From NCBI GenBank assembly GCA_019186945.1, contig JABAQJ010000007.1, positions 372,001 through 436,000 on the forward strand: DNA of 64,000 nt, read 5' to 3'. Under the pieces are notes generated by a model, which did not search any database, was not told where the DNA came from, and saw only the letters and a list, made by a program, of their open reading frames with translations. The position numbers were made by a program, and so were the translations under genes. The first letter of the stretch is position 1, and the number at the start of each line of letters is the position of its first letter. This stretch comes from Gemmatimonadaceae bacterium. Its GTDB lineage: Bacteria; Gemmatimonadota; Gemmatimonadetes; Gemmatimonadales; Gemmatimonadaceae. Below, piece by piece: positions 41,565 to 45,785 of the stretch.

Positions 41565-44021
41565 TCAGGGTCGATCCAGACGCATCACGGTCGATAGCTG
41601 GCGCACTGTATCGTAGATGCGGGCGGCCGACAGGCTGTCTCCCCCGTGGTCCAGGGAGCGCGCGAGGTACGAACCGGCGACGAAGTAGGCGAACGGTGTG
41701 CTCAGCGAGGGACGGTCGATCCAGTGCCCGTTGGCGACCAGTGCCGCGGGACCCAGGTAGACGTCGTTCCAGAGGAGCGATGAGGTGGAAACATCGAACC
41801 AGCCGTCGTCTTCGATCCGTACCACTTCCGTTGACGCGGACTCCGGCGACGATACCAGTGCCTGGGCAAGACCGCGAGTTATGACATACTCACCCAGTCC
41901 AATGCGTTGCGCGAAGCGGCCAGTAGTGCGACTGATGTATATCGGCCGCGACGGCCAGGCATCGGTAATCATTCGCAGCACGAGGATGTCAGCGCGTTCG
42001 AGTATCCCGCCGCCTGCGCCGTCGGGCTCGAGGTTGCGCGGATCTATCGTCGTCTCGATTCCTCCGGCGCGAAAGACGACAGGTGTATTGAGCGACACGA
42101 ACTGCGGGAGCGAGTCGACCTCCGCCAGGGTCATTCTTAACGGCGGTGTCGCAGGCTTTGGCCACGTTCGACCGCGGTAGAGAGCCGGCCCCCGCGACTC
42201 GTCATACGTGTAGATGGGTCTTCGGACCAGGCTGCGTGCGAACCAGTCCGTGTTCATGAGGGACAGCACGGCCACAGTGACGTCTCGTCGGATGCCCTCG
42301 ACCTCCTGTGCGTACCAGAGAGGGAACGTGTCGTTGTCTCCTCCCGTCACGAGGACGCCGTAGGGTTCCACGGAGTTGAGCAGGTCATGGGCGAACGCCA
42401 GCGTCGTGCGGTCGCCGTGTCGCGATGCGCTCCTCCAGTTTCCGGCGAAGGGGACGACCGGGATCGCTGCAAGCAGCGGCAGCGTTACAAGCGCCGCGCG
42501 GGTCGGGGAGACAGGTAGCAGCGCCATCAGACCACGCCAGATTACGCCAAGTCCCAGAGCGATCCAGACACTCAGCGCGGAGAAGCTCCAGAGAAAGAAG
42601 TAGTCGCGGTCTCGCACCTCGCGAGGAACGTCGAGTCGCGGCGCCTGCGATGCGCCATACCTGAAATTGAGGTAGAAGACCAGTCCGACGGTGAGGATGC
42701 CAACGAAGGAACCGAAATACCAGAACGTCCGGCGATCCCGCTGGAAGTGGACCCAGCCGCCAAGGCCGATGATGGCGAGGAATCCCATTGCTACCGTCAA
42801 TTGCAGCCCGGGACTCTCGTCACCTGCATCGCGGAGCCACTGCCACTTGAAGTAGAGCCACCACATCCCGAGCTGTGCTGTCCACGGTGCCTGGCGGTCC
42901 GTCAGTTCGGGCTTGCCGTACTGCGATCGGTTGAGATTGTAGAGAAAGGCATCGAGCGTTCCGCGCGAAAACGTGCACTCCAGGGCCAGGCCGTTGCGAC
43001 AGGCGGTGGGCTCGCCCTCGTTGATGGGCGGGTTGAATGCCGACCGGATCGGCTGGGTGGCGAACGGTGTCATCCCGAGGAGCATCAGACCTGCGCCCGC
43101 CAGCAGCAACCGCCAGCGCAGCAGCGTGCGCGGGCGGCGGGCGAGTATGGCCACGAACATGGCCGGTACGGGGATCATGCCCGCGATGTGATTGGCGTAG
43201 CCAAGGCCGCACAGGTACGCCGCGAGCAGCAGTCGCCGGTCGGACTCGTCTCCATCGGGATGAGCTGACCATCGCACCATGAGCCAGGAGACAATCGCCA
43301 GGCCGACGAGCGAGACGGTGTAGACCTTCTCGTTCACGACCGACTGGTTCCAGACCGTGAACGCAGTGGCTCCCGCCAGCGTCCCGAGCGTGGCGAGCGC
43401 CATACGTTGCCACCGTCGCTCGATCCATGTGGATGAGACCCGTTCGATCGTGACGAACCACAGGCTGGCCGAGGCGGCGCTGCAGATTGCCGCGAGCAGA
43501 TTGATCCTCACAGCCACATCCCGGGCAATGGGGAGGACAGAGAATACGCGCCCGATCAGGACGAACAGGGGATTGCCCGGAGGATGGGGGAGTCCGAGAG
43601 TATAGGCTGCCGTCATGTACTCGCTGGTGTCCCACATGGCGGTGGATGGTGCCAGCGTCGCCAGATACAACAGCAGGACGGTGATCCCGAGGCCGAATGC
43701 GATGCGCCACGGTGGTTCGGCGTTTCGATCGGCGTCGGCCTCAGTCGTACGATCGCTGGCGCGGCGCCAGTGCCGGATCGTCACCGGGATGGCGAGACAG
43801 TAGGCGAACACGAGGAGGAAGGGAGCGAGCGTGATTCCTCCGCGCACGAGGTCCGCATAGCCGACGACGAGTGATGCGAACGCGAGGGTCAGCGCCCACG
43901 CACCGCCAGGCGAACGCGCTCGGTCGGATTTGGCGGATGGCTGATTCCATGGCTCCGGTGACAGGAAACCTTCTCGCGTCGCAGCAGCGATTCGGGCAGT
44001 CGTAAGATAAGATTTTGTCAC
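41565..44021 (-). CDS. DUF2723 membrane protein (O-mannosyltransferase-like)
   Basis: An 818-residue membrane protein of the DUF2723 family, distantly related to lipid-linked-sugar glycosyltransferases of the GT-C fold. About 12 TM helices occupy residues 40-520. The diagnostic block AMWDTSEYMTAAYTLGLPHPPGNPLF carries the Asp and Glu typical of GT-C first loops. The C-terminal half is soluble, with VLVTGGDNDTFPLWYAQEVEGIRRDV, a strongly conserved motif of the family. The start is the GTG at 44021, because no other start occurs in the first 100 codons. The first codons overlap a near-copy of the BlaI-type operator (44006-44019). It is 42 bases after the M56 gene and probably shares its transcript. 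Confidence 0.85.
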   Translation of the reverse strand: MTKSYLTTARIAAATREGFLSPEPWNQPSAKSDRARSPGGAWALTLAFASLVVGYADLVRGGITLAPFLLVFAYCLAIPVTIRHWRRASDRTTEADADRNAEPPWRIAFGLGITVLLLYLATLAPSTAMWDTSEYMTAAYTLGLPHPPGNPLFVLIGRVFSVLPIARDVAVRINLLAAICSAASASLWFVTIERVSSTWIERRWQRMALATLGTLAGATAFTVWNQSVVNEKVYTVSLVGLAIVSWLMVRWSAHPDGDESDRRLLLAAYLCGLGYANHIAGMIPVPAMFVAILARRPRTLLRWRLLLAGAGLMLLGMTPFATQPIRSAFNPPINEGEPTACRNGLALECTFSRGTLDAFLYNLNRSQYGKPELTDRQAPWTAQLGMWWLYFKWQWLRDAGDESPGLQLTVAMGFLAIIGLGGWVHFQRDRRTFWYFGSFVGILTVGLVFYLNFRYGASQAPRLDVPREVRDRDYFFLWSFSALSVWIALGLGVIWRGLMALLPVSPTRAALVTLPLLAAIPVVPFAGNWRSASRHGDRTTLAFAHDLLNSVEPYGVLVTGGDNDTFPLWYAQEVEGIRRDVTVAVLSLMNTDWFARSLVRRPIYTYDESRGPALYRGRTWPKPATPPLRMTLAEVDSLPQFVSLNTPVVFRAGGIETTIDPRNLEPDGAGGGILERADILVLRMITDAWPSRPIYISRTTGRFAQRIGLGEYVITRGLAQALVSSPESASTEVVRIEDDGWFDVSTSSLLWNDVYLGPAALVANGHWIDRPSLSTPFAYFVAGSYLARSLDHGGDSLSAARIYDTVRQLSTVMRLDRP
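44006..44019. promoter_or_regulatory. Second operator-like palindrome before DUF2723
   Basis: GATAAGATTTTGTC at the DUF2723 start matches 12 of 14 bases of the perfect palindrome GACAAGATCTTGTC in the BlaI promoter (45751-45764). No -35 element accompanies it, so it may let the repressor tune DUF2723 on its own or be a decayed copy. Its overlap with the start codon is unusual. Confidence 0.5.
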
Positions 44022-44063
44022 ATTCGGGTGCGGCTTCTGGCCGCTGTTGCGCGGGTTGACCGA

Positions 44064-45317
44064 TTAGTGCTGCTTCGACAGGATGGCGAGGAGATCCCGT
44101 CCGGACGGCTGCGCGAGCGCGAAACGCGCCCAGGCTCGCACCCGTGGATTCGGGTCGGTGGCGGCTGCTGCCCTGGCCACGTCCACCGAATCGCGCCGCT
44201 GGGCCAATCCGGTTGCGGCGTAGGCGCGGGACGCCCAGTGCGAATCCGCCATCAGAGTAGTGAGCGTACGACGCGACGGCATCAGTTGCACCGAGCTGAC
44301 CAGGGGAGCGGTCGCCAGTACGGCCGACGCGACCAGCGTGGCGATGCGGCGCGGAACCGGCCGATCGAGCGGCTCTGGCGAGACGATGCGCATCAGGCGA
44401 TCGCGCAAGCCGCCGCCGGCAACTAGTGCCGCACCTGCCGGCGGCAGCGGCCAGAGCCCGCGAAACCGACTGCTCGCCAGTAGCAACAATTCGGCGTAGT
44501 CGCTGCGGCGTACCCCGTGTGCCAGCACGCACGCATCGCAGCTCAGCTCGCTCTCGGCAGCGAGAGCGCGGGCGACCCACCATACACCCGGATGAAACCA
44601 GAACAGGGCGCAGCTGATGCGGGACAGCAGGAGGAACAGAGGGTCGCGACGCCGGACATGGGCGAGTTCATGCAGGAGAACGGCGCGCTGCTGCTGGCGG
44701 CTCCATCCCATGACCGCCAACGGCAGGAGGATCGTCGGCCTGAGGACGCCCCACGTGCGCGGCGCGACCGGGTCACTGGTCAGTAGCAGCTGGATCGGTC
44801 TCCGGACGCCGATGTCGCCGCGCAGCGTTGCGAGCAGTTCTTCCCAGTGCGGGTTTCGCAACGGTTTCGCGCGCCGCGCGATCCCCGGTCCCAACAGGAG
44901 TGTCCGGACAAGCGGCGCAAGAAACAGCGCCACGCCGACCCAGTAAACGATGAGGACGAACGGCAGCGCGGTCGCGATTGCACCGGGGCCCAATCCCTCA
45001 GATGGGGAAGACGAGCCTTCGCTCACCGCCAACTGCAACACACCCAGTTCCACGAGTGGCGTCGAGAGTCGATCGGGAAGGCTCCAGGCAAACCACTGGA
45101 CGGGTTGGGCGCGGCCAACGTAGACCACGAGCAGGGCGATCGTGGCGGCGCGCCAGATCAGGGATCGGACCTTCGAACAGGCAGTCCGACACGCCAGCGC
45201 GCCTCCGATGGCGATCGCGAGCGGCAGTGTCGCCAGCAGCAAAGAGGAGTAGGCGTGTGCCGCCAGACGGACGCTGTCGGCCGGGGTCAATGGCAACGCA
45301 ACTCCGCCGCCGTCCAT
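44064..45317 (-). CDS. M56 family sensor metallopeptidase (BlaR1-like)
   Basis: A 417-residue membrane-embedded zinc protease of family M56, the kind that senses envelope damage and cleaves its paired BlaI-type repressor. Hydrophobic helices lie at about residues 18-43, 53-70 and 115-140. The protease loop carries VLLHELAHVRRRD with the HExxH-type motif and, further on, AAESELSCDACVL with the third ligand Glu. The extracytoplasmic penicillin-binding sensor of BlaR1 is missing. Instead the C-terminus ends in about 90 residues with HEAT-like helical repeats (DSHWASRAYAATGLAQRRDS, then DPNPRVRAWARFALAQ). The sensed signal is therefore unlikely to be beta-lactams. The start lies four bases after the BlaI gene stop. 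Confidence 0.88.
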   Translation of the reverse strand: MDGGGVALPLTPADSVRLAAHAYSSLLLATLPLAIAIGGALACRTACSKVRSLIWRAATIALLVVYVGRAQPVQWFAWSLPDRLSTPLVELGVLQLAVSEGSSSPSEGLGPGAIATALPFVLIVYWVGVALFLAPLVRTLLLGPGIARRAKPLRNPHWEELLATLRGDIGVRRPIQLLLTSDPVAPRTWGVLRPTILLPLAVMGWSRQQQRAVLLHELAHVRRRDPLFLLLSRISCALFWFHPGVWWVARALAAESELSCDACVLAHGVRRSDYAELLLLASSRFRGLWPLPPAGAALVAGGGLRDRLMRIVSPEPLDRPVPRRIATLVASAVLATAPLVSSVQLMPSRRTLTTLMADSHWASRAYAATGLAQRRDSVDVARAAAATDPNPRVRAWARFALAQPSGRDLLAILSKQH

Positions 45318-45321
45318 GGCT

Positions 45322-45714
45322 CTACTTCCCTTCCGCCCGCAGGCGACGGATCACGGCATCCATCTCTGTCCGCTCGGTCTCCGTGAGTGGGCGAGCGTCA
45401 TCCTCGACCAATGCGGCCAGGGCCGCGGCGCGAGAGCCGTTGAAGAACGTGCTGATCAGGTGACGGAGCGCCGATCGCTGCGCGACGCTGCGTGGCGTCG
45501 TCGGCAGGTAGACGTGGCGCGGTCCGTCCTTGATGTGGCGCAGTTGCCCCTTCTCTTCGAGGATGCGTATCAGTGTGCGAACCGCCGCCGGATGCGGCGG
45601 ATCCCGCAACTGGCTGCGGACTTCGGCTGCAGTTGCCCGACCGGAACGATAGACGACATCCATGATCTCTCGTTCGCGACGGCTGAGATTCGGCGGATGC
45701 GATGACGATGGCAC
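45322..45714 (-). CDS. BlaI/MecI/CopY-family repressor
   Basis: A 130-residue winged-helix repressor of the BlaI/MecI/CopY family. LSRREREIMDVVYRSGRATAAEVRSQL is the DNA-binding start, and AAVRTLIRILEEKGQLRH is the recognition helix and wing. The C-terminal dimerisation helix includes SALRHLISTFFNGSRAAALAALVED. In the family, cleavage by the partner M56 protease lifts repression. The gene is first in a three-gene minus-strand unit, and its own promoter contains a perfect 14-bp palindrome (45751-45764), so it probably represses itself and the genes behind it. Confidence 0.93.
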   Translation of the reverse strand: MPSSSHPPNLSRREREIMDVVYRSGRATAAEVRSQLRDPPHPAAVRTLIRILEEKGQLRHIKDGPRHVYLPTTPRSVAQRSALRHLISTFFNGSRAAALAALVEDDARPLTETERTEMDAVIRRLRAEGK

Positions 45715-45750
45715 GAGGCGACCTGCTCTTCGGTACGGGTGCGGCGATAG

Positions 45751-45785
45751 GACAAGATCTTGTCTCTTTGCCTACGCCGTGTCAA
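45751..45785 (-). promoter_or_regulatory. Promoter and palindromic operator of BlaI-M56 unit
   Basis: On the minus strand a perfect -35 hexamer TTGACA (45785-45780) is followed by exactly 17 bases and a -10-like CAAGAT (45762-45757). The -10 lies inside a perfect 14-bp palindrome GACAAGATCTTGTC (45751-45764), 36 bases upstream of the BlaI-type start codon. Binding there would block the polymerase, so this is the likely autoregulatory operator. The spacing and symmetry are read directly; the binding is inferred. Confidence 0.72.

Follow-up and report, generated by a model that had tools for sequence, protein, structure and literature searches.

The blaI–M56–DUF2723 locus

The window analysed here, a stretch of 64,000 nucleotides from a Gemmatimonadaceae genome (contig JABAQJ010000007.1, positions 372,001 to 436,000), carries on its minus strand a gene trio encoding a BlaI-type repressor, an M56 (BlaR1-type) membrane zinc protease and a DUF2723/TMEM260-like polytopic membrane protein, together with two palindromic sites that resemble repressor operators. 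The blaI gene (45322–45714) encodes a protein with the recognition helix HPAAVRT that scores 87.6 bits against PF03965 (gathering cut-off 22.6 bits, E = 1e-24). The M56 protease (44064–45317) contains the motif HELAH...E and scores 98.6 bits with PF05569 (E = 4.9e-28), and the third and target gene (41565–44021), a putative GT-C glycosyltransferase, reaches 160.1 bits with PF11028 against a gathering cut-off of 24.2 bits (E = 6.3e-47). The only other BlaI-family gene in the window genome (G000:C7:181448–181792, L125) has the helix AQTTIATLL and is without operators of the type found at the trio.

On the minus strand the blaI promoter reads TTGACA (45785–45780), a spacer of exactly 17 bases and then CAAGAT (45762–45757), which lies within a perfect palindrome, GACAAGATCTTGTC, at 45751–45764. 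A 12-of-14 copy of this palindrome, GATAAGATTTTGTC, overlaps the GTG start codon of DUF2723 at 44006–44019. Both the promoter with its buried −10 and the weaker copy at the DUF2723 start had been named in the original prediction, made from the letters of the window, and re-reading the sequence gave agreeing coordinates. That prediction also proposed a genome-wide search for the 14-mer, which gave a divided answer: the perfect form occurs once in the window genome (3.95 Mb), whereas with up to two mismatches the pattern has 14 matches, compared with 7 for its reversed form, and is unspecific. The 14-mer was dropped as a genome-wide probe, being too loose at two mismatches, and an 18-mer was used instead. 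Because near matches are not rare, the weaker copy is by itself only mildly surprising, and the two window sites taken alone are suggestive but fall short of proof.

Conservation of the unit and its operators

Among 179 Gemmatimonadaceae genomes searched, DUF2723 was found in all, the complete trio in 13, and close relatives of the window BlaI and M56 proteins in far fewer genomes than DUF2723. Besides the window genome, the three genes lie side by side on one strand in 12 further genomes of three other genera (G082 in genus g13, G113–G118 in g28 and G150–G154 in g32; the trio is broken by a contig end in G113 and G152), while the flanking genes are wholly different between genera, g32 having a galactokinase-like gene, g28 a reductase and a helicase, and the window transporters (names judged by eye from translations, except for the window transporters). 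Since the trio is kept while its neighbours differ, gene order supports the earlier proposal that blaI, M56 and DUF2723 belong together as one unit, and the possibility that DUF2723 has an unrelated neighbourhood in relatives is not borne out within this clade, where the linkage holds. Most DUF2723 genes of the family are nevertheless unlinked to BlaI (179 genomes with DUF2723 against 13 with the trio), and in the DUF2723 tree the trio label requires two changes, because the g28 trio copy has unlinked duplicates beside it.

A consensus 18-mer derived from the relatives, GAGAYAARWWYTTRTCTC, recurs with few changes upstream of blaI and again at the beginning of DUF2723. In the window these sites are operator 1 (GAGACAAGATCTTGTCCT on the minus strand, 45749–45766), which overlaps the −10 element of the blaI promoter, and operator 2 (GTGACAAAATCTTATCTT on the minus strand, 44004–44021), which covers the GTG start of DUF2723. 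Operator 1 is kept in each of the 11 trio loci whose sequence extends upstream of blaI, in g28 as two sites in tandem, 21–22 bases apart, and operator 2 is kept in all 13 trio loci. Seven positions are invariant over 29 trio sites (G3, A6, A7, T12, T13, T15 and C16). The predicted operators, including the palindrome upstream of orthologous blaI genes, are therefore conserved within this clade.

Genome-wide occurrence was assessed by a pattern search allowing up to two mismatches, rather than by a weight matrix. The 18-mer matches the window genome exactly twice, at operators 1 and 2, and the same holds for G082, G151, G152 and G153, so that each of these five genomes (about 21 Mb with the window genome) has exactly two sites, both in the trio. 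A control palindrome with shuffled half-site letters gave 1–8 scattered matches per genome and 49 over the 13 genomes, against 74 for the operator; outside G116 (18 operator against 1 control match) and G117 (25 against 6) the numbers say little. Pattern counts were consequently rejected as proof, and it is position rather than number that carries the argument. As the 18-mer matches only two places in the window genome and both sites recur in related loci, the window observation can be regarded as settled, and a switch with two matching operators is very probably real.

The protease of the unit retains its catalytic signature, HExxH and the downstream E being invariant in an alignment of the 13 trio M56 proteins, and the window protein matches the BlaR1 structures 8exs and 8exp (E = 1e-3). 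As originally noted, however, it has no penicillin-binding sensor domain: the protein stops about 70 residues past its last membrane helix, only HEAT_2 was found there, and the NCBIfam BlaR1 equivalog model scores 61.7 bits against a cut-off of 400. A beta-lactam is therefore unlikely to be the signal. The HEAT-like repeats described earlier fare less evenly, since the HEAT_2 match of the tail (about residues 349–417, encoded at 44064–44270) lies just below the cut-off (25.4 against 27.7 bits, E = 1.8e-5), although about 55 HEAT-like residues after the last membrane helix are conserved in all 13 orthologues. An AlphaFold model of the protein, built from two sequences with a mean pLDDT of 46.7 and used for the helical tail only, places four short helices in this segment up to residue 400 (pLDDT 67–88). 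Both termini of BlaR1 lie on the outer side of the cell membrane, and BlaI is a direct substrate of its cleavage (PMC9834060), which by analogy would put the HEAT-like tail outside the membrane as well.

Operator 2 and the paralogous operons

The two operators differ in their surroundings. In 10 of 11 loci a TTGAC box precedes operator 1 by 14–19 bases, whereas none of 13 loci shows a 5/6 match to the −35 box in the 24 bases that precede operator 2. Operator 2 begins anywhere from the start codon itself to 31 bases beyond, and the gap upstream of DUF2723 measures 16–43 bp in loci with both gene ends called. The palindrome at DUF2723 does not qualify as a second promoter-operator, since it sits in this short junction or in the first codons and has no −35 box. 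Because that box is absent, operator 2 reads as an operator inside the operon, that is, within one transcription unit and without a recognisable promoter of its own. It could instead be part of an unrecognised DUF2723 promoter that lies within the 3′ end of the M56 gene and is controlled in the manner of the blaI promoter. Classical bla and mec targets do have promoters of their own, and in genomes of g28 and g32 a promoter accompanies the operator at ADOP permease genes and at a DUF2723 paralogue, so this alternative deserves some weight; it is nonetheless unlikely, given the contrast in −35 matches between the two sites and a position at, or up to 31 bases past, the start codon in most loci, which is too far downstream for a blaI-like layout.

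At the window and g28 loci operator 2 is translated in codon phase 0 (VTKSYL, ETKNYL), at the g32 and g13 loci in phase 1 (GDKILS, RDKFLS), and two phases with different peptides imply that it is conserved as DNA rather than as peptide. The site does lie within the reading frame at nearly all loci, as would be expected if its letters were kept for the protein and resembled operator 1 by chance, but the codon phases, the five genomes in which exactly two sites occur, both in the trio, and the recurrence of the layout with other letters in paralogous operons (below) effectively rule this out. A hairpin in the mRNA, controlling translation from over the start codon, would fit a site that overlaps or adjoins that codon in every locus. 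Mirror pair 5/14 is, however, unpaired in 9 of 13 operator 2 sites, and half-site changes are uncompensated, yet each half-site holds its own consensus (12.5 of 14 positions); the same motif, moreover, is untranscribed at the blaI −10. The hairpin was rejected on this loss of pairing and is very improbable. The two codon phases, together with RNA pairing that is not kept, indicate that operator 2 is a DNA site.

The trio repressors form a single clade with support of 100/100, and an alignment of their recognition helices gives [HV][AP]AAVRT, against SYSAVRA in most BlaI paralogues of the family. Many of these paralogues have operators of the type TGCTAA-N4-TTAGCA over their promoters, often in tandem, where the trio core is AGAYAA instead of TGCTAA. 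Trio-type operators were sought at the other BlaI genes of the family and were absent, other letters being found there. Helix and operator thus appear to change together, the trio clade differing from the paralogues in both. The originally predicted control of DUF2723 by the BlaI–M56 pair is partly supported, through the unit and its conserved operators, and has to be qualified in that most DUF2723 genes are unlinked to BlaI and other BlaI copies have other operators.

Outside the family but within the same class, genomes G341 and G356 (one other family; loci L196 and L197) encode a BlaI protein 60% identical to that of the window and an M56 protein with a HEAT-like tail, and the third gene there specifies, instead of DUF2723, a secreted hydrolase of the metallo-beta-lactamase fold that scores far below the cut-offs for true beta-lactamases. 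Operators of the form GTGCCA-N6-TGGCAC are found at blaI and again just upstream of this third gene. Likewise, in 4 of 18 paralogous BlaI loci examined (L200, L205, L209 and L215) the operator particular to that locus occurs a second time, immediately upstream of the third gene. This independent recurrence of a second operator, with other letters and other third genes, is the strongest support for a function of operator 2. Within these four loci, the operator letters also seem to track the helix (VRA with TGCTAR, VRS with TGNTGA and VRG with TGTCAA).

Proposed mechanism, targets and relation to known systems

We propose, with a probability of about 0.72, that the three genes form one autoregulated operon in which BlaI occupies both operators, operator 2 acts as a roadblock and the M56 protease brings relief. 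From features read in the sequence, namely the unit, both operators and their conservation as DNA, the missing promoter at operator 2, the altered helix and the kept protease motif, we infer BlaI binding, the roadblock, a signal, cleavage and glycosylation as follows. A BlaI-type dimer on operator 1 would cover the −10 and repress the operon promoter, while a dimer on operator 2, whose most likely mode of action is a roadblock, would stop RNA polymerase that has already passed blaI and M56. DUF2723 would thereby be repressed more tightly than blaI and M56, whose basal expression would be needed for the sensor to stand ready. An envelope signal would be received by the extracytoplasmic parts of the M56 protein (the loop between helices 2 and 3, and the HEAT-like tail), and the protease would then inactivate BlaI, freeing operators 1 and 2 and allowing DUF2723 to be made. 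A comparable arrangement is lac O2 inside lacZ, where, as in roadblock repression, a promoterless operator sits early in a coding region within the transcription unit that is repressed; operator 2 differs in standing at the start of a third gene and in belonging to a layout that paralogous repressors share although their operator letters differ.

A DNA loop might also join the BlaI dimers at the two operators, with operator 2 as an auxiliary site that, like lac O2, reinforces repression at the promoter, which would agree with two sites about 1.7 kb apart within one operon and with the missing promoter at the second. This is improbable, as the spacing of 1673–1786 bp shows no helical phasing, so that phased looping is unsupported, paralogous operons have a wider spacing of about 1.9 to 3.3 kb, and operator 2 always keeps to the beginning of the target gene rather than to a constant distance from operator 1. 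BlaI is not known to form tetramers, which also counts against looping.

Several observations weigh against the roadblock operon that we favour. CAAGAT agrees with TATAAT at only 3/6 positions and is a weak −10; the −35 check would overlook a promoter ahead of operator 2 that is read by a different type of sigma factor; and the operator spacing speaks neither for nor against looping. The trio operator does not fit the published BlaI/MecI type, TACA-NN-TGTA (PMC7253601). Furthermore, the residues at which Staphylococcus aureus BlaI is cleaved (Asn101/Phe102) are not conserved, no Asn-Phe being present there in the trio alignment, and cleavage of the trio repressor can therefore be argued by analogy only.

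The target matches the solved human protein O-mannosyltransferase TMEM260 (9rql; E = 6.7e-16), with which it has in common the Pfam family PF11028, the first-loop D and E (of WDTSE), HPPG and a second weak match in the soluble part. Unlike TMEM260, the trio protein is bacterial and has an extra N-terminal membrane segment, and its activity is putative; its assignment to the TMEM260-like membrane glycosyltransferases is a reasoned guess from these likenesses. The stress-responsive glycosylation switch suggested earlier is likewise conjectural.

The regulon appears to be wider in g28, where 9 (G115), 18 (G116) and 25 (G117) operator sites were found. Four g28 genomes have orthologous ADOP permease genes (L149, L173, L187 and L191; 54–67% identity) preceded by a tandem or single operator and a TTGAC box, and the G115 copy (L149) scores 715 against 622 bits for TIGR03434; two related ADOP genes in g32 (L192 and L193) have the same operator with a TTGAC promoter. 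The ADOP permease is likely to be a second target of the trio BlaI in g28. A second, unlinked DUF2723 gene in G118 (L188:918–3026) has TTGACG and the operator just before its ATG, so that the link between BlaI and DUF2723 recurs outside the operon. Many of the single sites within coding regions may be due to chance. Tandem operators 21 bases apart, apparently intragenic and with no obvious promoter, were seen in G117 (L185:3069–3107, L172:3064–3102 and L169:2974–3012), one of them in what seems to be an mreC-like gene. An operator-like site at the same place in an SMC-like chromosome-segregation gene of two g28 genomes (L159:3030 and L184:3050) is probably inherited coding sequence.

BlaI–BlaR1 and MecI–MecR1 of S. 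aureus and Bacillus licheniformis have the same foundation: a BlaI-type repressor beside an M56 protease with HExxH...E, and an autoregulated operon with an operator over its promoter. The trio departs from them in its HEAT-like tail, which takes the place of the penicillin-binding sensor, in its operator (GAGAYAA-N4-TTRTCTC, or close to it, at 29/29 sites, against TACA/TGTA), in a target that is third in the same operon rather than divergent and has a second, promoterless operator at its start, and in the target itself, DUF2723 rather than beta-lactamase or PBP2a; the NCBIfam model BlaI_of_BCL gives the window repressor 31.8 bits against a cut-off of 180. The copper repressors CopY/CopR, with the consensus RNYKACANNTGTMRNY (PMC7253601), are alike in their DNA-binding family and in tandem operators (two 21-base repeats in pneumococcus). 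They differ in that the trio BlaI scores 37.7 bits with CopY_TcrY against a cut-off of 122, is without the Cys-X-Cys tail or any cysteine in its C-terminal part, and is partnered with a protease, not a copper exporter. Judged by sequence, the trio is a unit of the BlaI/BlaR1 kind with a new combination of sensor part, operator and target, followed here through 13 genomes.

A literature search found nothing on BlaI in Gemmatimonadota, on BlaI–M56 pairs outside resistance or on a regulated DUF2723. As far as we are aware, BlaI/BlaR1 has been described almost exclusively in connection with the beta-lactam resistance of Gram-positive bacteria, and the locus gives the first hint of what regulates a bacterial TMEM260-like protein. 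More tentatively, and at somewhat less than even odds, the arrangement may represent a general design in Gemmatimonadota, in which a BlaI–M56 pair would be co-transcribed with its target, a promoterless second operator would stand at the target start, and helix and operator letters would co-vary, so that many pairs per genome could operate without cross-talk on targets ranging from glycosyltransferases to hydrolases and ADOP permeases. The trio offers a testable case of an operator within an operon that separates the expression of a target from that of its regulators, and from the natural pairs of helix and operator the rules by which the BlaI family reads DNA could be derived.

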